DNA of 64,000 nucleotides from Selenomonas sp. TAMA-11512 (GCF_037076525.1 NZ_AP029018.1:1364001-1428000), one strand, 5' to 3'. Shown: positions 10,315 to 23,009, numbered from the stretch's first letter. Translations and numbers: made by a program. The notes: a model not told the origin generated them from the letters alone.

Positions 10315-11049
10315 TTAACATCGCATCTTTTCGAAGTAAGCGACTTGTATCGGATACCCCTCAGTTGTGTACGCATTGTAAGATAATTCCCGGATGACTC
10401 TATACCCTCTTGGGGCTTTGATTTCGTCTTTGTAGGTTTGCGCCCTCGTGATTTTCTTTTTTGTCGGCGGGCGGCGCAGTAGATTTTTTGAGGTTTGTAC
10501 GCCGCCTGCACGCTTTTCCACTTTCTCCTTTGTGAAGTAGTCTGACATTTTTTTTGCATCGAGTGCCCCGCCTCGATACGGTTCCGCTTTCACCCGCCCA
10601 TGCGGCCAGATATCTTCTACGCGATTTATCAACTGTGCATATTCCAGTACGGCCGGAATGAGAATGTGACAATGCGGGCGACCTCGTCCTGACAGATTCT
10701 CAACGATGCCTATATAGCGAAATGGAATATTTCTTCGCTTTAACCAGTCTCGCATGTTTCGCTTGAATTTCTCAAAATCTTTTTGGACTTTCTCTCGATC
10801 CGGTGTCTCCCTGTATGTGAGCGTCAAATACCAATCTCCATTTTTGAAATTGTCCGCCAGGAGCATCATCAGGTTTTCTGCTCGTCTCTTTCGGTTGATT
10901 TCTTCTTGCCGCTCTGTTGTCTTCCCCATCCTCGCCCCTCGTTTTTCTTTGATGATCGGATTCTCCGGGACGGCCTTCGCGGAATGGTACCTTTTTCGGA
11001 TGATGATTCTCTTGTCTTTCGATTCCCATTTGCTTTCCATGTATGCCAT
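10315..11049 (-). CDS. HUH-type replication initiation endonuclease
   Basis: 244 residues with the motifs of rolling-circle Rep proteins: motif I YLTLTY (about residue 73), motif II with the metal-binding pair in RPHCHILIP (His-x-His, about residues 125-127), and motif III tyrosine in KKMSDYFTKEK (about residue 167). Flanks are rich in lysine and arginine. HUH enzymes nick one strand and stay covalently linked by the tyrosine. Only one clear motif-III tyrosine is visible. It is the first gene upstream of the packaging cluster and is the only replication gene I recognise in this prophage. The leader before its ATG is shared with the next gene upstream. Confidence 0.8.
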   Translation of the reverse strand: MAYMESKWESKDKRIIIRKRYHSAKAVPENPIIKEKRGARMGKTTERQEEINRKRRAENLMMLLADNFKNGDWYLTLTYRETPDREKVQKDFEKFKRNMRDWLKRRNIPFRYIGIVENLSGRGRPHCHILIPAVLEYAQLINRVEDIWPHGRVKAEPYRGGALDAKKMSDYFTKEKVEKRAGGVQTSKNLLRRPPTKKKITRAQTYKDEIKAPRGYRVIRELSYNAYTTEGYPIQVAYFEKMRC

Positions 11050-13809: not shown

Positions 13810-14172
13810 TCACTTCGTACTCTCATAGTCCCCGTCATACTCCCCATGCTCCGCCAAAAAGGCTTCCGCTTCATCAAAGCTCATTTCGTCCGCGTCTTCC
13901 TCCTCCGAGTCCGGGGCATTGAGATTCAAAAGAGCAGCAGCCAGCCGTTCCGGATGTGGAATTACCACGACACGCAAAGCGTATTTGATCTCATACCCAT
14001 AATCCAAGTACCCGTGCACCACCAGCAGATTGCCGTCGTCGATGAGATAGGCATGATATTGTTCCTTCTTTATATCCGCATCCATCAGAATCAATCGAGC
14101 ACCGCACTCCACACGATTCGTCACATACATCCGCATCTCTCTGGGATAGTTGTCATTCAGCTGCAGTTTCAT
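13810..14172 (-). CDS. Early phage protein with acidic C-terminal tail motif
   Basis: 120 residues. The N-terminal 85 residues are beta-rich (MKLQLNDNYPREMRMYVTN, later YHAYLIDDGNLLVVHGYLDY) and of unknown family. The last 31 are acidic and contain DEMSFDEAEAFLAEHGEYD, which recurs almost unchanged at the end of the unrelated nuclease-like protein at 16915-17976 (DEMSFDDAEAYLAAHGEYD). The start codon overlaps the stop of the upstream small gene (ATGA). Its leader is nearly the same as that of the ribbon-helix-helix gene at 15628-15795. Confidence 0.65.
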   Translation of the reverse strand: MKLQLNDNYPREMRMYVTNRVECGARLILMDADIKKEQYHAYLIDDGNLLVVHGYLDYGYEIKYALRVVVIPHPERLAAALLNLNAPDSEEEDADEMSFDEAEAFLAEHGEYDGDYESTK

Positions 14173-15841: not shown

Positions 15842-15863
15842 TCTTTTCTCTTGCAATAAATTA

Positions 15864-15877
15864 TCGCATTTATGCGA
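15864..15877. promoter_or_regulatory. Operator half-site pair O3 (TCGCA-N4-TGCGA)
   Basis: TCGCATTTATGCGA overlaps the stop codon of the Cro-like gene. It is the same palindrome as the two operators in the divergent promoter region, but 250 bp away, which would allow looping by repressor oligomers. Confidence 0.6.
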
Positions 15878-16088
15878 CTTCTATTCCAAAAAAAATAGCA
15901 TTTAAGTCTGCAAGATTAAGTTTCAATGTTTCAGCAATAATGTTAACTTCCCGAATTGTAAAAGCCTCCCCATCACTCTCTAGTTTCCGATAGAATGTGG
16001 ATCGATTGATCCCAAGTAAAGACGCCATTTTATCAGCATTCACTTTATACTCAACCATCCGCCCACGCAATCTATCTACGTTTACCAT
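15870..16088 (-). CDS. Cro-like regulator
   Basis: 72 residues from ATG 16088 with GGAGGTGATATC upstream. VDRLRGRMVEYKVNADKMAS and LLGINRSTFYRKLESDGEAF form a helix-turn-helix of the phage Cro/DUF739 type. It is transcribed away from the LexA/CI-type repressor, the usual lytic counterpart in a genetic switch. Operator O1 lies between its promoter and start codon and O3 over its stop. Confidence 0.75.
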   Translation of the reverse strand: MVNVDRLRGRMVEYKVNADKMASLLGINRSTFYRKLESDGEAFTIREVNIIAETLKLNLADLNAIFFGIEVA

Positions 16089-16111
16089 GATATCACCTCC
16101 ATAACTTAATT

Positions 16112-16209
16112 ATCGCATATATGCGATTTCTAATTATAGAATACGCTATTCATGTTTCAATGTCAAGCTATTTTTCGCAATTTATGCGAAAAATATTGCA
16201 TATCCGCGA
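16112..16209. promoter_or_regulatory. Lysogeny switch: divergent promoters and operators
   Basis: Minus strand promoter: TTGACA (16161-16166) and TATTCT (16138-16143), 17-bp spacer, towards the Cro-like gene. Plus strand promoter: TTGCAT (16197-16202) and TATTAT (about 16220-16225), 17-bp spacer, towards the repressor. Operators: O1 ATCGCATATATGCGAT (16112-16127), O2 TCGCAATTTATGCGA (16175-16189), and a degenerate TTGCATATCCGCGA over the repressor -35. O1 would block the Cro-like gene and the degenerate site would give self-control of the repressor. Confidence 0.75.
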
Positions 16210-16245
16210 GAAAGATGATATTATCAATAACAGGAGGTGCACGTT

Positions 16246-16872
16246 ATGACTATTGGTAGCCGCATACGAGAATATAGAAAAAAGCTAGACTTATCCGTTG
16301 ATGATGTCGCTGAAAAGTTAGGAAAAAACAGAGCAACTATCTATCGCTATGAAAGCGATGATATAGAAAATTTGCCTGCATCTGTACTCGAACCGCTGGC
16401 AAAAATCCTACAGACAACTCCTGCTGAATTGATGGGTTGGAAAAGAGAAAGTATTGATGATTTCTTTGCCTTGCCAAACATCGAGCCATACAATCCGACG
16501 ATGGTTCCCGTCATCGGCTCCATCGCCGCAGGCACTCCGATTCTCGCCGCCGAAAACATCGAAGGATACGCACCCCTACAAGGCAAAAACGCCGACTTCG
16601 CACTCACGGTCAAGGGCGACAGCATGATCGGCGATAACATACATCCCGGAGACATCGTCTTTATACGTCAGCAGCCGACCATTGAAATCGGCGAGATCGC
16701 CGCCGTCCTCATCGACGGCGATGCTACACTAAAGCACTTTTATCGAGACAGCGACTCTGTTACCCTTGTATCCTCCAACCCGAAATATAAACCCATGGTG
16801 TTCCGCAACGGCGACTGCGACGAGTTTCGAATCTTAGGTAAAGCCATCGCCTATTTACATGATCTGGAATGA
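16246..16872 (+). CDS. Self-cleaving prophage repressor (LexA/CI type, S24)
   Basis: 208 residues. N-terminal helix-turn-helix (SRIREYRKKLDLSVDDVAEK, then NRATIYRYES), then an S24 peptidase domain: cleavage-site dipeptide in GSIAAGTP (about residue 95), catalytic Ser in VKGDSMIGD (about residue 125), catalytic Lys in DGDATLKHF (about residue 163). RecA-stimulated self-cleavage would induce the prophage after DNA damage. The ATG at 16246 follows ACAGGAGG by 9 bases; a GTG 9 bp upstream is less likely. The last 30 bases of the gene recur behind the nuclease gene at 17970-18002. Confidence 0.92.
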   Translation: MTIGSRIREYRKKLDLSVDDVAEKLGKNRATIYRYESDDIENLPASVLEPLAKILQTTPAELMGWKRESIDDFFALPNIEPYNPTMVPVIGSIAAGTPILAAENIEGYAPLQGKNADFALTVKGDSMIGDNIHPGDIVFIRQQPTIEIGEIAAVLIDGDATLKHFYRDSDSVTLVSSNPKYKPMVFRNGDCDEFRILGKAIAYLHDLE

Positions 16873-16914: not shown

Positions 16915-17976
16915 GTGCTTTACTTCTTAATCTTTCTCCTAGTCATATCGTGGATATATATTCTGTGTTCTTCTTCCACTGTCAATCACTTAAATCAAAA
17001 GAATACAGAATTGAAGAACGAAAATCAAAGTCTGAAGCACGCGATTGAGGACTTAGAAGAGAAGGACCTATGTTGTGTGCAGTTGCGCGATACTTTATCG
17101 AAATACCGGCAAAGGTTAGAACAAATAGATGGATGGGAAAAACGCAAAGAGTCCGCTAGACAGAAGCGAATCGAAGCCGGTGCATGCTATGAGCGATATA
17201 TCGGATTTCTTTCAGAGGAAAAAGGGTTTTCTACTATATATTATGGCATATTAAAAGGATTTGATGACCATGGCATTGATTTGATCTGTGCAAGGGATAA
17301 ACGTATATATATTGCTCAATGTAAATACTGGAATCCGAGATACAGAAAGGTGAACTACAAAACCATTCTATACTTAATCGGTTCTACATTTTGGTTTTAT
17401 TCAACTTACATATCAAAAGATATTAAAGATTTTGCTGATGCTATGAGTCAAAAGAAAATTATTCCGCTATTGGTAGTCAGTCACAAGGTCACGGATCCTG
17501 CCATTCTTGCTCTTTCTAAGCGGTTGGGGGTTATCCTCATCGAAAAACCTATGCGCAGGCAAATGAATAAAACACCTATTAAGTATGCCGCCTCTATCCT
17601 TTCCAACGAAACCTCCTATATTACTCCCTCCGACTCTAAGACGGACTATGTTATCGCAAATATGGATAGAAACATCCAATTCTATCAAAATTTTGTTCAG
17701 ACTTACTTCAAAGAAATCCACTATTATTTAATCAAGAGAGTTCGTTCGACTCAACCTATAGAGGTTTTCTATCAAATATCATATAGAAATATAAAGGATT
17801 CTGATGAAGTGAAGCCTGATGAAACGATCTTTGATATAGAGCACTCCAGTGAGATAGAGTCTCCTGAATCAATAGTTAATGATGAGGAAGACTTTGATGA
17901 AATGAGCTTCGATGATGCGGAGGCTTATTTGGCAGCACATGGAGAGTATGATTCGAACTGGGAAAACACGCCATAA
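16915..17976 (+). CDS. Membrane-anchored Mrr-like restriction endonuclease-fold protein
   Basis: 353 residues from a GTG with TTAGGAGGATACCC upstream. Residues 1-20 are one membrane segment (LYFLIFLLVISWIYILCSS), 25-90 a coiled coil (NQKNTELKNENQSLKHAIED), 95-215 a PD-(D/E)xK nuclease domain of the Mrr type: YERYIGFL, then GIDLICARDKRIYIAQCKYW with the Asp and the Q-x-K pair, then a PLLVVSH strand. The C-terminal 130 residues are unknown and end in the acidic DEMSFDDAEAYLAAHGEYD tail shared with the gene at 13810. It lies next to the repressor, a common place for lysogeny-expressed exclusion genes. More A/T-rich than the phage structural genes. Confidence 0.72.
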   Translation: MLYFLIFLLVISWIYILCSSSTVNHLNQKNTELKNENQSLKHAIEDLEEKDLCCVQLRDTLSKYRQRLEQIDGWEKRKESARQKRIEAGACYERYIGFLSEEKGFSTIYYGILKGFDDHGIDLICARDKRIYIAQCKYWNPRYRKVNYKTILYLIGSTFWFYSTYISKDIKDFADAMSQKKIIPLLVVSHKVTDPAILALSKRLGVILIEKPMRRQMNKTPIKYAASILSNETSYITPSDSKTDYVIANMDRNIQFYQNFVQTYFKEIHYYLIKRVRSTQPIEVFYQISYRNIKDSDEVKPDETIFDIEHSSEIESPESIVNDEEDFDEMSFDDAEAYLAAHGEYDSNWENTP

Positions 17977-18002
17977 CCTATTTACACGATCCGGAATGAT
18001 AC
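17970..18002. repeat. Orphan copy of the repressor 3' end
   Basis: GCCAT-AA-CCTATTTACACGATCCGGAATGATA matches the last codons and stop of the repressor gene (16843-16875) with four differences, but here no repressor frame precedes it. It directly overlaps the stop region of the nuclease gene, marking the nuclease as an insert between duplicated ends. Confidence 0.75.
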
Positions 18003-18018
18003 ATAAGCAATCAAAAAA

Positions 18019-18034
18019 GCCGCCCAACGGCGGC
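18019..18034 (-). terminator. GC-rich stem-loop with T-run on the minus strand
   Basis: GCCGCC-CAAC-GGCGGC is a perfect 6-bp stem. Read on the minus strand it is followed by TTTTTT, the form of an intrinsic terminator; on the plus strand it lies just before the Shine-Dalgarno of the next gene, so it may also influence that start. Confidence 0.5.
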
Positions 18035-18049
18035 AGAAGGGAGGTTCTT

Positions 18050-18391
18050 ATGGGCGATGTATCTATGGAGACAATACGGGCACGAATCCAATCTGACGCG
18101 ATATCATGGACAACCCATGTCGCTACCCGTATGATAAAACGCAGCATAGCGCCGCTCGATGTGCTTTCCGTATTGCGTGACGGGCATATCATAGAGCATT
18201 ATCCCGAGGATTACCCGTTCCCGAGTTGCTTGGTTTTCGCCATAGTCGATGGCCGCCCTATACACGTTGTCTGCAGCATAGGAGATGAGCAGCTTTATGT
18301 CATAACCGCGTATCAGCCTGATGCGGCGCGATGGGATTCTACATTTACAAAACGCATTGACACTGACAATAAGGAGGAAGATCATGAATAA
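18050..18391 (+). CDS. DUF4258 protein, probable toxin of a toxin-antitoxin pair
   Basis: 113 residues. THVATRMIKRSIAPLDVLSV, then HIIEHYPEDYPFPSCLV, then HVVCSI and a YVITAY strand follow the DUF4258 pattern (H-x-x-x-R-M-x-x-R-x-I ... I-E-x-Y-P-x-D), a RelE/ParE-like fold. In many genomes it is followed by a YgiT-type zinc-finger protein, as here (8-bp overlap), a layout taken to be a toxin-antitoxin module. GAAGGGAGG precedes the ATG. RNase activity is a family expectation only. Confidence 0.75.
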   Translation: MGDVSMETIRARIQSDAISWTTHVATRMIKRSIAPLDVLSVLRDGHIIEHYPEDYPFPSCLVFAIVDGRPIHVVCSIGDEQLYVITAYQPDAARWDSTFTKRIDTDNKEEDHE

Positions 18392-18614
18392 GTGCACATT
18401 CTGCAAAGGTTCAACGAGGGAGGGACTTTCCACATTTACGGTTGAGATCGACTCCAGCGTCGTTGTGATTCGTAATGTTCCGTCCATGATCTGCGAGCAG
18501 TGCGGCGAGATCTACTACACAACAGAGGTCATGACTCGCATGTATCAGATCGCACAGCTGGTGAAAGACTCCATGTCGGAAGTGGCGATCGTGAACTACC
18601 ATCCGGCGGCATAG
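18384..18614 (+). CDS. YgiT/MqsA-type zinc-finger antitoxin
   Basis: 76 residues. Two C-x2-C knuckles (KCTFCKGS and ICEQCGEIYY) make the YgiT-type zinc finger; the middle VVVIRNVPSMICEQCGE and the tail with TRMYQIAQLV are typical of the N-terminal domain of MqsA-like antitoxins. There is no C-terminal helix-turn-helix, so DNA binding may be lacking. It overlaps the DUF4258 gene by 8 bp. A deleted relic of this gene lies at 21701-21750. Confidence 0.78.
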   Translation: MNKCTFCKGSTREGLSTFTVEIDSSVVVIRNVPSMICEQCGEIYYTTEVMTRMYQIAQLVKDSMSEVAIVNYHPAA

Positions 18615-18679
18615 TTCCTTTCATGCACGTTGATTCAAGTAATTTGACAGTTTTTCTGCAAAAACGTAAGTAAAATAAA
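18609..18679. repeat. 71-bp direct repeat, left copy (cargo boundary)
   Basis: Starts at the end of the antitoxin gene and runs downstream; it matches 21729-21799 with three mismatches. It contains TTGACA followed after 17 bases by TAAGTA, a possible weak promoter that would read into the ATPase/methylase cassette. A further 24 bp (18723-18746) match 21806-21829, so copy 1 has about 18 extra bases between the two blocks. Confidence 0.88.
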
Positions 18680-18807
18680 ACTAAATCTCCATTATTGAAA
18701 GGAGTTGATGCCCCTTTTTATTCATTCTCCGGTATGCCGCATCGGATACCCTGCACATTATCAATATCGGTTCTCGTGGAGATATTTACAAATAAGGAGG
18801 ATATGAC

Positions 18808-19020
18808 ATGAATGCAAATGAGCAAGAGATGCTTCGTCTCTATAATTTTCTGCCGGATGTTGATAAGGATTTCGCTCTCACGTTCATGAGGAAGCTTGTT
18901 CTTGCATGGGATCCTGACTTCACAAAACTCACGCCGATGGAACGCGCCGAGTTGGATTCCGCCCGTGAAGATTTTCGAAATGGAAACGCAGTTTCCCATG
19001 AGGATATTGACTGGAACTAA
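18808..19020 (+). CDS. Small antitoxin-like protein at head of ATPase cassette
   Basis: 70 residues from ATG 18808 with AAGGAGGATATGAC upstream. Helical: NEQEMLRLYNFLPDVDKDFA, then RKLVLAWDPDFTKLTPMERA and an ending GNAVSHEDIDWN. The ending resembles RelB/Phd-like antitoxins (A-x-x-[DE]-x-x-x-G-x-x-[VS]-x-x-[ED]-[DE]-[IV]), but no RelE-like toxin frame follows. Its stop overlaps a following ATG (TAATG at 19018-19022). It could be a solitary antitoxin or a component of the cassette. Confidence 0.6.
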   Translation: MNANEQEMLRLYNFLPDVDKDFALTFMRKLVLAWDPDFTKLTPMERAELDSAREDFRNGNAVSHEDIDWN

Positions 19021-19106
19021 TGATTGGACGGTCGATATCAGAGATTATCGCCGCCTGTCGAAACACCATGAAGAGGATTCCCAAACCAGATTTAGGAGGA
19101 GTAGAA

Positions 19107-20744
19107 ATGGCACCTATAGAACCGTCTGGCACTGAGACTATACCTCTGCCGGCAAAGAAGTCACGAAGGAGGAATACTCCGGTGTACGTCAGCAGAATCA
19201 AAAAGATGATTCTGCATAAGTTCCGTCAATTCGAGGAGAAGGAGATTCCAATTGCCAAAGGGTTGACCGTTATAGCGGGACATAATGCAACAGGAAAATC
19301 CACACTCCTTGCCGTCTTGGCCAATAGCTGCGAATGGAAAACCGAAAAACCTTTGATCAAGTCGAGTTTTCGAGGCGAATTTCCGGATATTATCAAAGCC
19401 TCGGCCGATCACGACCAAACACAATCTAATGTTATTGAAATTATCTTTTCCGACACTTCGGAGTCTAAAAGTGATTTTTCTGTGCCATTCCGTACTACGT
19501 GGCAAAGTAATCGGACACGCTTTCGGCTTATCCCTAAACATCATGGAACGGAATCTAAGCTCGGATATCCCATTATTTACCTCGGGCTCAGCAGATTGTA
19601 TCCTCTAGGCGAATGCAACAGCTCCACTTCGCTCAAATCGGTACCTGTCATTACGACATACTTTGAAACGAACCCAGGTGATAAAAACTGGTTGATTGAG
19701 ACTTATAAACGCATCTTGAATCAATCAAACATATTGGACGTAGACCCAAGACTTCATCCGGATGTGAAACAAAAGATATTTGCCGGTGTAAAAAACGAGG
19801 ATTACAATGGCCTTTGCAATTCATCCGGACAAGATAACCTGGGGCAAATCCTCCTATCCCTACTTTCATTCAGAAACCTGAAAAGACAACTTCAAAACAA
19901 CTCTGCTCCATGGAATGGAGGAATTTTCCTTATCGATGAACTGGATGCCGCGCTGCACCCTGCAGCACAGGTTCGGCTTCTCGATTTACTATCCAAGGAA
20001 TCCATTGAATTAGGTTTACAAATTGTATTCACAACCCATAGTTTATCCATGCTGGAACATTTCTATAAAAACGATGGTAGTCCAAGATACGTAGACAGCA
20101 CTGTCGTATATATTACGACACAGAATGACGCCCTATCTGTCGAAGAAACGCCTCCTCTTTCGATGATACGGAATGATATGCTTGTTGTGGATCCAGCTAC
20201 GCTATCTCTTTCCCCTGTCTTGGTTCTCACAGAAGATGCAGAGACACGCTGGTTTTTAGGAGAGATTTTGCCGGAGAATATAAAGCGTCAAATAAGAATG
20301 CCGGAAATGGGATGGGGCTGCGAAGAACTGGTAAAATTCAATCAAGAGACATTTCCAGCCCTAGAAAAATCCTTGATTGTCGTAGATGGCGATTTTAAGC
20401 TAGATGACGCCAAGGAATACAATCTTCTGGTATTACCCGGAAACAACTCTCCGGAAGGTGTTATTTACGATTTTCTCAAATCTTTGCAGCCGGACCATAC
20501 ACTGCTTAATAACTCTTTAGGAATTAACAAACGAGCTTTAGATGAGTATGGTCCATTCTCTTCCAAATATTATGATTTAACGTTAGATCGCAAAAAATAT
20601 AAAAAATGGTTCAGGGACAATAATGACCATCTTATGGCATTGAATGTTATTTCCTATTGGAGGGAGCAACATAAAAATGAAATTGATTCTTTCGTAGAGA
20701 AATTTCAATCCAAACTATCCAGCATCAAGGCTATGCGAAGATAA
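19107..20744 (+). CDS. OLD-like ATPase with C-terminal TOPRIM-like domain
   Basis: About 545 residues. ATPase part: Walker A GHNATGKST, a long inserted region, SGQDNLGQILLSLLS in the ABC-signature position, Walker B GIFLIDELDAALHP, and H-loop TTHSLSM. C-terminal part: LVLTEDAETRWFLGEIL with the TOPRIM-type glutamate, then LIVVDGDFKLDD with a D-x-D, as in OLD-family nucleases. Start: AGGAGG at 7 bases before ATG 19107 is much the best site; an earlier ATG at 19020 overlaps the upstream stop and would add 29 residues. OLD-family proteins act in phage defence (P2 Old, Gabija GajA). Followed by a DNA methylase. Confidence 0.75.
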   Translation: MAPIEPSGTETIPLPAKKSRRRNTPVYVSRIKKMILHKFRQFEEKEIPIAKGLTVIAGHNATGKSTLLAVLANSCEWKTEKPLIKSSFRGEFPDIIKASADHDQTQSNVIEIIFSDTSESKSDFSVPFRTTWQSNRTRFRLIPKHHGTESKLGYPIIYLGLSRLYPLGECNSSTSLKSVPVITTYFETNPGDKNWLIETYKRILNQSNILDVDPRLHPDVKQKIFAGVKNEDYNGLCNSSGQDNLGQILLSLLSFRNLKRQLQNNSAPWNGGIFLIDELDAALHPAAQVRLLDLLSKESIELGLQIVFTTHSLSMLEHFYKNDGSPRYVDSTVVYITTQNDALSVEETPPLSMIRNDMLVVDPATLSLSPVLVLTEDAETRWFLGEILPENIKRQIRMPEMGWGCEELVKFNQETFPALEKSLIVVDGDFKLDDAKEYNLLVLPGNNSPEGVIYDFLKSLQPDHTLLNNSLGINKRALDEYGPFSSKYYDLTLDRKKYKKWFRDNNDHLMALNVISYWREQHKNEIDSFVEKFQSKLSSIKAMRR

Positions 20745-20802
20745 TAAATCTATGGCCACCAAGCAATTCTTCTGCTATGATGGAGGAAAGGAGGTCTTGA
20801 CT

Positions 20803-21690
20803 ATGCCACATACATACACGCCCTTGCGTTATCCGGGCGGAAAAACGCAGCTGTCCAAATTCGTTCAACATACAATCGAAATCAACCACATGGTATCCCC
20901 TATTTATTGCGAGCCGTTTTGTGGCGGGGCTGGTGTTGCCATAGACCTTCTGCTGAAGCGGAAGGTTACCTCTATCATTCTCAATGATTTTGATATATGC
21001 ATATATTCTGTTTGGGAAGCCATCCTAAACGACACGAAAAAATTCCTGCAGAAGCTTAATGATACACCTGTCAATATAAATGCATGGCATGAACAACACA
21101 ACATCTATGAGGCGGGCAGAGCATCCGACAAATACAGTCTCGATCTTGCTTTTGCCACCTTCTTTTTGAACCGTACCAATATGTCCGGAATTATTACTGC
21201 TGGTCCCATCGGCGGCTTCGCGCAAAGCGGAAATTATAAACTGGATTGTCGCTACAATAAAGAGGCCTTGAAAAAAAAGATTTTAGACATTGCATCTATG
21301 CGAGATCGTATCCGTCTCTATCACATGGACGCTGCAGATTTGATCCGTGATATATTGGTTTATCAAGATCCGGCAAGACTGTTTGTATTCTTTGATCCCC
21401 CATATTATCAGCAAGGGAAAAACCTATATAAGAATGCATTTAACGACGAAGGTCATGTTGCCTTGGCAAATGCTATTCGCGAGATGAACACATTTAAGTG
21501 GATTCTCACCTATGACAATCATCAGCGAATTCAGGAGCTTTATCAAGATATCCCGCCCATGTGGTATAGTCTGCGATACATGGCCAATAAAAAGAGGAAT
21601 GAATTGGAGCTGTTTTTACACAGCCCGGAGACAATCGTCGAATCTTATGGCAAAGTGTTTTTTGATCGGCACATTCCTTTTGCTGTATAA
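20803..21690 (+). CDS. Dam-family DNA adenine N6-methyltransferase
   Basis: 295 residues. TPLRYPGGKTQLSKFV opens the D12/Dam class; motif I is EPFCGGAGVAIDLL with the glycine loop for S-adenosylmethionine, and the catalytic motif IV is FFDPPYYQ (about residue 205). The target-recognition insert lies between them, so the DNA site cannot be read off. I start at ATG 20803 (AGGAGG 8 bases upstream). The gene lies 58 bp after the ATPase and ends at a fossil antitoxin. Methylation could protect the prophage from the linked ATPase or from a host enzyme. Confidence 0.88.
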   Translation: MPHTYTPLRYPGGKTQLSKFVQHTIEINHMVSPIYCEPFCGGAGVAIDLLLKRKVTSIILNDFDICIYSVWEAILNDTKKFLQKLNDTPVNINAWHEQHNIYEAGRASDKYSLDLAFATFFLNRTNMSGIITAGPIGGFAQSGNYKLDCRYNKEALKKKILDIASMRDRIRLYHMDAADLIRDILVYQDPARLFVFFDPPYYQQGKNLYKNAFNDEGHVALANAIREMNTFKWILTYDNHQRIQELYQDIPPMWYSLRYMANKKRNELELFLHSPETIVESYGKVFFDRHIPFAV

Positions 21691-21700
21691 AGGAGGTTTT

Positions 21701-21750
21701 CATGAATAAGTGCACATTGTGGTGATTCGCATAGTTCCTTTCATGCACCT
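21701..21750 (+). pseudogene. Fossil of the YgiT antitoxin gene
   Basis: CATGAATAAGTGCACATT equals the first 18 bases around the antitoxin start (18383-18400) and still has AAAGGAGG upstream; GTGGTGATTCG matches an internal stretch (18462-18472, one mismatch) and GCATAGTTCC the stop region. The middle parts are lost, leaving a stop after seven codons. It shows that the cassette once sat between two full copies of the antitoxin gene. Confidence 0.8.
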
Positions 21751-21829
21751 TGATTCAAGTAATTTGACAGTTTTTCTTCAAAAACGTAAGTAAAACAAAG
21801 TCTTGCATTCTCCGGTATGCCGCATCGGA
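21729..21829. repeat. Direct repeat, right copy (cargo boundary)
   Basis: 21729-21799 matches 18609-18679 with three mismatches; 21806-21829 matches 18723-18746 exactly. The pair brackets 3.1 kb holding the small protein, ATPase and methylase. The TTGACA/TAAGTA pair in this copy would point at the integrase gene. Confidence 0.88.
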
Positions 21830-21836
21830 GAACCAT

Positions 21837-21893: not shown

Positions 21894-23009
21894 ATGAACT
21901 ATCGCAAACGCGGAGACAAATGGTATTTTGAAATCAGCTTTACCGATCCGGAGACGGGAACGCGCAAGCGCATCAGCCGTGTCGGCGGAACGACAAAAGC
22001 CGATGCCGCCCGCGCCGCTCGTATTACACTCGCAAAGCATACCGATACCATCGGTCGTTGGCAAGAGCCGGCTGCGATGTCCTATTCCGACTTCTTTTCC
22101 ATATTCATGGACGAGTATGTAGAAGTCAAGCTCCGCCCGGCGACAGTCAATACCTACAGAGGCGTTGCAAAGAACCATATTCTTCCCGTCGTCGGTGACG
22201 TGCGTCTGGCAGACCTCACGCCCCGTCTCTTTCAGAACACGGTCAATGCGCTTATCGGCAAGCTGTCGCATGGTTCTATCCAGTCCGTCGTCTTTATCAT
22301 CAAGAGCTCTATGCGCTATGCCGTGGACGTGTGCATGTTCCTGCCGTCCAATCCCGCCCGTGCTCTGACGGCCCCGCCCGCTGATGCGCCTAAAAAGAAG
22401 TCGCATGTCTTTACCTGCGATGAAATGACAGCCATCTTCCGGAAGTTTCCGGAGAACCATCGATTCCATATGGCGATCATGTTGTCCTACCACACCGGCA
22501 TGCGTCTCGGTGAGTGCCTGGCGCTTCGATGGGCGGATGTGCATCTGAAAGAGCGCGAAATATTCATCCATACGACGCTTTACGACCATCGAGGGGAAAG
22601 CCTTGTCCAATCCTTCCCGAAGACGAACAGCTCGATCCGCACCGTCCCCATCGATAAAAAGCTTACCTCTGCCCTGCGTCATCAAAAGAAGTGGCAGATG
22701 GAGCAGCGCCTTGCCTTTCCGGATGAGTGGCGCGGTTCAGACTTCGTATGCACAAGAGAAGACGGCCGCAATCTCACGTCCGACGATATGCGCTATTTCG
22801 GCCAATGGTGCAATGCCGTCCTCGGAAATGGCACGTTCCACTCCCTGCGCCATACACACGCCACGATGTCCCTTGAGGCCGGCGAGGATATCGAGCTTGT
22901 CTCTAAACGCCTTGGCCACAGCTCCATCAACACGACTGCCAAAGTCTATTCGCACGTCCTTGACAAGCGCAAGGAGAAATCTCGACAGCTGCTCGATGAA
23001 ATACTATGA
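21894..23009 (+). CDS. int: Prophage tyrosine integrase
   Basis: 371 residues. N-terminal arm-binding domain (YRKRGDKWYFEISFTDPETG), core-binding SAM-like domain (about 63-165) and catalytic domain. Catalytic residues visible: Arg in HTGMRLGECLALRW (about residue 205), His-x-x-Arg in HSLRHTHATM (about 315), His in LGHSSINTTAKVY, and Tyr in KVYSHV (about 351). It integrates and excises the prophage. TGGGAGG precedes the ATG. It is the last prophage gene on the right; host genes start 380 bp further. The integration target is not a tRNA gene visible here. Confidence 0.93.
   Translation: MNYRKRGDKWYFEISFTDPETGTRKRISRVGGTTKADAARAARITLAKHTDTIGRWQEPAAMSYSDFFSIFMDEYVEVKLRPATVNTYRGVAKNHILPVVGDVRLADLTPRLFQNTVNALIGKLSHGSIQSVVFIIKSSMRYAVDVCMFLPSNPARALTAPPADAPKKKSHVFTCDEMTAIFRKFPENHRFHMAIMLSYHTGMRLGECLALRWADVHLKEREIFIHTTLYDHRGESLVQSFPKTNSSIRTVPIDKKLTSALRHQKKWQMEQRLAFPDEWRGSDFVCTREDGRNLTSDDMRYFGQWCNAVLGNGTFHSLRHTHATMSLEAGEDIELVSKRLGHSSINTTAKVYSHVLDKRKEKSRQLLDEIL

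Follow-up and report, generated by a model that had tools for sequence, protein, structure and literature searches.

An OLD-like ABC-ATPase with a C-terminal TOPRIM-like domain and an N6-adenine DNA methylase of the PD-Lambda-5_B (PD-λ-5_B) family lie side by side, at 19107-21690, in a prophage of Selenomonas sp. TAMA-11512, within a window of 64,000 nucleotides (bases 1,364,001-1,428,000 of the 2.59 Mb single-contig genome). Both proteins retain conserved catalytic residues, the two genes are recurrently linked and have diverged together, and the ATPase exchanges with PD-λ-5_A as partner of the methylase. On balance, we consider that the pair probably forms a two-gene prophage defence module with restriction-modification-like logic, in which the methylase would mark self DNA and the ATPase-TOPRIM protein would be the effector; its function is likely to be restriction-like or abortive defence.

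The prophage is recognised by matches to tail, head, head-tail adaptor and terminase proteins, a CI-type repressor and an integrase. The tail, head, adaptor and terminase genes lie to the left of the pair on the minus strand, and the pair itself has the repressor side on its left and the integrase on its right, a common place for cargo genes. As an earlier note on this DNA described, three consecutive plus-strand ORFs run from 18808 to 21690 and are A/T-richer than the phage body, the ATPase and methylase genes having a GC content of 41.8% and 42.5%, compared with 47.5% in the whole window and 54.7% in the integrase gene next to them. The ORFs, prophage setting, motifs and methylase class of that description all stand, but its start codons and three-gene extent do not. 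A promoter scan gave little above chance, and phage records held no near DNA match of the cassette region. The features are as follows.

16237-16872: CI/LexA-type repressor
18382-18751: left-flank copy of a duplicated segment, comprising MqsA-like antitoxin gene ends, intergenic DNA and the beginning of the RelE remnant (repeated directly at 21700-21834)
18721-18795, plus strand: remnant of a RelE toxin C-terminus (FILRYAASDTLHIINIGSRGDIYK*), outside the system (from translation; compare locus L280)
18808-19020, plus strand: RelB-like antitoxin, 70 residues, a neighbour outside the system (relatives lie beside intact RelE toxins)
19107-20744, plus strand: OLD-like ABC-ATPase with C-terminal TOPRIM-like domain, 545 residues (phrog_3940, AAA_15/AAA_21, invariant residues)
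20190-20741, plus strand: TOPRIM-like domain, residues 362-545, predicted effector nuclease (invariant acids, IbfA profile match, model)
20803-21690, plus strand: N6-adenine DNA methylase, PD-Lambda-5_B family, 295 residues (PADLOC PDLC04018, E=3.5e-107; Pfam MethyltransfD12, E=7e-22)
21700-21834: right-flank copy, an internally deleted version of the left segment (sequence repeat)
21894-23009: tyrosine integrase

Other genes of the prophage are of interest in their own right. Upstream, 16915-17976 (plus strand) may be another defence gene: its product is anchored in the membrane and has a coiled coil and a domain resembling Mrr nucleases (Pfam Mrr_cat, E=4.5e-4, which narrowly misses the cut-off). 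Foreign-methylated DNA is the target of Mrr-type enzymes, so its presence alongside a methylase is curious. This protein and the otherwise unlike product of 13810-14172 (minus strand) end in similar C-terminal tails, DEMSFDDAEAYLAAHGEYDSNWENTP and DEMSFDEAEAFLAEHGEYDGDYESTK. A DUF4258 protein (17912-18391, plus strand) is followed by an MqsA/YokU-like protein (18378-18614, plus strand), probably as a toxin-antitoxin pair, and the same order recurs beside RelE/RelB at another locus (L281). Two 25-nucleotide repeats, at 15859-15883 and 16108-16132 (AATTATCGCAT-TATGCGA-TTCTA, with a near-palindrome inside), stand either side of a divergent Cro-like/CI-like region and are probable operators, while 10318-11049 (minus strand) matches rolling-circle-type replication initiation families (phrog_3584, E=2e-39; phrog_3419, E=3e-12) within what is a tailed prophage.

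The 70-residue protein had been taken as a third component of the cassette. Its relatives (46-79% identical) adjoin intact RelE toxins without an ATPase or methylase, and in one genome (G035) its homologue and the pair are ~550 kb apart. Because a RelB-like gene of this kind normally adjoins RelE, independently of the pair, we confine the unit to the two genes at 19107-21690. That the small protein is a functional subunit of a three-gene cassette, as the contiguity and common direction of the genes had suggested, is scarcely credible against the occurrence of its homologues beside RelE and away from the pair. RelE in the window is reduced to its last codons, and the pair and antitoxin are enclosed by the imperfect direct copies at 18382-18751 and 21700-21834, recombination between which could delete the pair. 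In G025 an integrase directly follows a 79% identical antitoxin, an arrangement resembling an empty site, and we infer that the pair was inserted as one unit.

The ATPase ORF is readable from 19020 (574 residues), but the likely start is the ATG at 19107, since homology begins near there (at about residue 58) and AGGAGG, a strong ribosome-binding site, precedes it. The protein matches phrog_3940, of unknown function, over its full length (E=1e-112), and it also matches AAA_15/AAA_21 and the generic ABC ATPases of defence systems in PADLOC. No specific family name emerged, as PADLOC returned 141 generic ATPase matches and NCBIfam only PtuA, far below cut-off. The full Walker motifs reported earlier are present (Walker A GHNATGKST, from residue 58; Walker B D277-E278), together with an ABC signature (S239-x-G241) and H-loop (H311), all invariant or at least 90% conserved in 79 diverse relatives; over 79-83 homologues the ABC and TOPRIM-like motifs are near-invariant or invariant. 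Fully invariant among the 79 are R140, R163, S239, G241, D277, E278, Q305, T309, H311, E376, D377, D427 and D429. An AlphaFold2 model of the whole protein, for which three alignment rows from another collection were left out, is confident (pLDDT 92.6), and its fold matches are to GajA, TsOLD and PtuA.

The E ... D-x-D pair that had been noticed at the end of the ATPase corresponds to E376-D377 and D427-x-D429, and these four acids are the only invariant residues of the C-terminal domain in the 79 sequences. Because the ATPase domain filled the fold search with the whole model, the C-terminal domain was folded alone, again with confidence (pLDDT 93.6). The acids directly follow a first strand (371-375) and a later strand (422-426), which is the TOPRIM arrangement. 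Among fold matches, AriB (VIA Z 6.1, rmsd 5.4, 151 aligned), the retron-Eco2 TOPRIM (5.8) and OLD TOPRIMs (5.8) rank high, but receiver domains reach equal scores over shorter alignments. With a best VIA Z of 6.1 and a Foldseek E of 0.2 the match is weak, which counts against our favoured explanation. The structural check proposed in the earlier note thus gave a confident model with the acids in place, and a fold match that does not decide the matter alone, since receiver domains score nearly as high. Profile comparison is more telling. The C-terminal profile aligns with the TOPRIM domain of IbfA/HEC-04 (hhalign probability 89, E=2.2e-6), TED pairing with VED and DGD with DGD; ibfA of plasmid R64 was here taken, by length, as its 1557-bp AAA-ATPase gene. 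The HEC-04 profile of PADLOC matches the protein at 4.6e-18, among many ATPases, and is the only PADLOC match to the C-terminal part (1.2e-4). Pfam TOPRIM matched none of the 79 members, comparison with a P2 Old profile aligned the ATPase part alone and not the TOPRIM part, and a PDB sequence search with the C-terminal profile returned nothing useful. Taken together, the four invariant acids and the profile alignment with IbfA decide the call of a TOPRIM-like domain, which is well supported though remote.

The methylase ORF is readable from 20752 (312 residues), and the ATG at 20803, with AAAGGAGG upstream, is probably the start, since homology begins near there. Its motifs (PLRYPGGK, FCGGAG, NRTNMSGI and DPPY) bear out the Dam-class (D12) assignment made previously on FCGGAG and DPPY, and its best match by far is the PADLOC PD-Lambda-5_B profile. 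DPPY is 100% conserved in 119 methylase relatives, so catalysis appears to be under selection. The segment in the position of the Dam recognition loop (FLNRTNRSGI...GGVIGG...RFN) belongs to the best conserved stretches of the protein and does not differ between partner types. Such conservation suggests few target sequences, which would be unusual for a classic restriction-modification arms race and counts against the explanation we favour.

Recurrent linkage had been proposed as a check, and we surveyed loci fetched by the ATPase alone, not chosen for a methylase, in 106 non-redundant clusters at 70% identity. A PD-Lambda-5_B-type methylase lies within 4 kb of the ATPase in 91 of them (HMM score >150; 90 at a score >200), almost always on the same strand and with a median gap of 27 nucleotides, a result that strongly bears out the predicted linkage. 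The order is ATPase-methylase in 54 clusters, methylase-ATPase in 9 and convergent in 2, and a further 24 include PD-λ-5_A as an additional gene in several orders, with PADLOC profiles confirming the identity of that gene in seven cases (weakly in one); 66 of the 106 have the ATPase and methylase only. Of the 15-16 clusters with no match to this methylase, several are cut by contig ends and one (L043) has its methylase in pieces; others have a cytosine methylase (L051), type I restriction-modification genes (L063 and L068) or, in one case, another Dam-type methylase. Clusters with no methylase of any kind also exist (e.g. L114, L119), and these weigh against our explanation. The ATPase relatives that lie beside a cytosine methylase or inside type I operons speak for our explanation, and hint that this ATPase serves several modification systems.

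Among 189 genomes of the host's bacterial family, only 8 carry the methylase and 7 the ATPase (E<1e-20), and in all seven of the latter the two genes are adjacent (hypergeometric p=5e-12); 13 weakly similar ATPase loci in the same search had no PD-Lambda-5_B-type methylase. Loci bearing the pair are spread over 14 or so named phyla, one archaeon included. An E. coli version, whose proteins are labelled simply 'AAA family ATPase' and 'DNA adenine methylase', is present in 85 of 5,426 complete genomes, and the one copy examined (ATPase WP_089633810.1, methylase WP_089633809.1) is in a prophage, adjoining an integrase. ATPase and methylase distances are correlated (Mantel r=0.50, reached in 0 of 2000 permutations), a value to which shared host ancestry could contribute.

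Viewed from the methylase, the partner changes. In 39 viral loci centred on the methylase, counted at strong scores, PD-λ-5_A alone accompanies it in 25, the ATPase alone in 12, both in 1 and neither in 1. On a tree of 123 methylases, built quickly and therefore approximate, the ATPase is gained or lost at least 13 times; having the ATPase as sole partner requires at least 11 changes when only well-supported branches are counted, a number that is likewise approximate. These counts and changes lead us to regard the methylase as the common module, with PD-λ-5_A and the ATPase as alternative or joint partners. Two further loci may be mentioned here. In G043 (L278) a methylase of the same family directly follows a DruE (Druantia) gene, possibly a third kind of partner, and the 715-residue PADLOC candidate model PDLC04607 (PDC-M38A), seen with L006 and L009, has an N-terminal part matching PD-λ-5_A and a C-terminal part matching the ABC ATPase, so that by sequence it looks like a fusion of both partners.

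How might such a module work? We suggest that the PD-λ-5_B-type methylase would place N6-methyladenine at its target site in host and prophage DNA as a self mark, the logic proposed at the outset, which we retain as the most likely. The ATPase-TOPRIM protein would serve as effector in the place of PD-λ-5_A. Its dimer of ABC heads may engage DNA or a phage-made structure, using ATP, the trigger being either absence of the mark or disturbance of the methylase or DNA by infection. The TOPRIM domain would then cut nucleic acid, presumably to destroy phage DNA or abort the infection. By analogy, the methylase family and the TOPRIM-like match, which connect the pair to PD-λ-5 and HEC-04/IbfA, both proven anti-phage, would favour a defence module.

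A serious rival, if in our judgement an unlikely one, is a guard or abortive system, in which the ATPase would monitor the methylase or DNA-mimic anti-restriction proteins, the TOPRIM domain would cleave tRNA or host DNA, and methylation would be bait. AriA of PARIS monitors Ocr, and AriB gives the highest VIA score with the TOPRIM-like domain (Z 6.1), although it cannot be ranked above OLD or retron TOPRIMs, which tie within Z 1. The profile match to the abortive IbfA/HEC-04, the description of PD-λ-5 itself as a compact RM+Abi system, and a methylase recognition region conserved whatever the partner are also consistent with a guard. A mere bait, however, would need no active enzyme, and the complete conservation of DPPY argues that catalysis is selected. 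The two genes might instead be independent cargo at a shared insertion site, one for a protective phage methylase and the other for an OLD-like exclusion ATPase of class 1. Such a reading would be in keeping with the position of both in the usual cargo site beside the integrase in several prophages, and with ATPases that have no methylase; it is improbable given correlated divergence and ~85% linkage over 14 or so phyla, which persists although 9 clusters have the reverse order and 24 a third gene. It is very improbable that the locus is a canonical PD-λ-5 whose A subunit was lost or lies elsewhere, with the ATPase an unrelated neighbour: PD-λ-5_A does occur in 24 of the 106 ATPase clusters, but a PD-λ-5_A profile found no match anywhere in the window, and 66 clusters have only the ATPase and methylase.

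The two-gene module with a self-marking methylase can also be set in a broader scheme, which we put forward tentatively. The PD-λ-5_B methylase may be a shared self-marking module with interchangeable effectors (the ParB-like PD-λ-5_A, the OLD-like ATPase-TOPRIM protein, both, or, in one genome, perhaps DruE), and the ATPase-TOPRIM version a new OLD class whose nuclease would read methylation status, in effect a restriction enzyme with an SMC-like ATPase as its core. The ATPase shows no evident target-recognition domain by which it would read the methylation state, a point against our favoured explanation. The pair joins two families with open mechanisms, PD-λ-5, a proven defence, and the OLD/TOPRIM ATPases, for which self versus non-self is in question. 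Should the self mark come from the methylase, that question becomes testable by altering phage DNA methylation alone, and since natural E. coli copies exist the pair can be tested in laboratory strains. As defence-annotation profiles recognise only the methylase here, a widespread system has probably been overlooked.

Among known systems, the OLD nucleases (P2 Old, class 1; GajA, class 2; retron-Eco8, class 3) share the ABC ATPase and C-terminal TOPRIM-like domain, and the ATPase part here matches P2 Old by sequence profile and GajA in structure; those nucleases stand alone or have as partner a UvrD-like helicase or a reverse transcriptase, in contrast to the methylase found here, and a review of OLD proteins includes no class with a methylase partner. 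The pair is therefore outside Gabija, since no UvrD-like GajB adjoins it and the genes around the ATPase code for a RelB-like antitoxin, the methylase and an integrase, and outside the retrons, no reverse transcriptase being among the neighbours. It is outside PARIS too, which likewise combines an OLD-type ABC ATPase (AriA) with a TOPRIM nuclease (AriB, the top VIA match, tied with OLD and retron TOPRIMs): here the TOPRIM-like domain is fused, there is no separate AriB and the next gene is the methylase. The earlier note's observation of an OLD-like ATPase paired with a methylase instead of UvrD-like or AriB-type partners is thus borne out, and extends to the reverse transcriptase. Type II restriction-modification offers the likeness of a methylase with intact motifs beside a putative nuclease, but the pair has no recognisable restriction endonuclease, and an ATP-dependent ABC protein would be the effector. 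HEC-04/IbfA of plasmid R64 is a single-gene ATPase-TOPRIM protein proven to act against phages by abortive infection (PMC12111858); it too has an ABC-ATPase fused to TOPRIM and its C-terminal domain aligns, but it has no methylase, unlike the conserved partner here, and whole-length BLASTP similarity is negligible. Among open-licence papers we found no description of the ATPase-methylase pair; a 2020 survey of ABC-ATPases falls outside that scope, so an earlier description is possible.

The closest relation is to PD-λ-5, a two-gene prophage system recovered through a functional selection (Vassallo et al. 2022, PMC9519451), which protects E. coli from nine of 10 phages and is described as a compact RM+Abi system. 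It was tested in a host deleted for the mrr region (PMC9519451), suggesting that its methylase may add foreign adenine methylation, a target of Mrr. Methylase family, prophage location and two-gene format are the same in both. PD-λ-5_A, a protein of ~470 residues with no Pfam match and, by eye, a ParB-like GNRR motif, is absent here, with no PADLOC PD-Lambda-5_A match to the neighbouring proteins among the matches listed; the OLD-like ATPase-TOPRIM protein stands in its place, and the pair is to that extent outside PD-λ-5 proper. The earlier proposal of a new system had overlooked the family of the methylase. Since the methylase belongs to PD-λ-5_B, we regard the pair as a variant of PD-λ-5 and not as a wholly new system.
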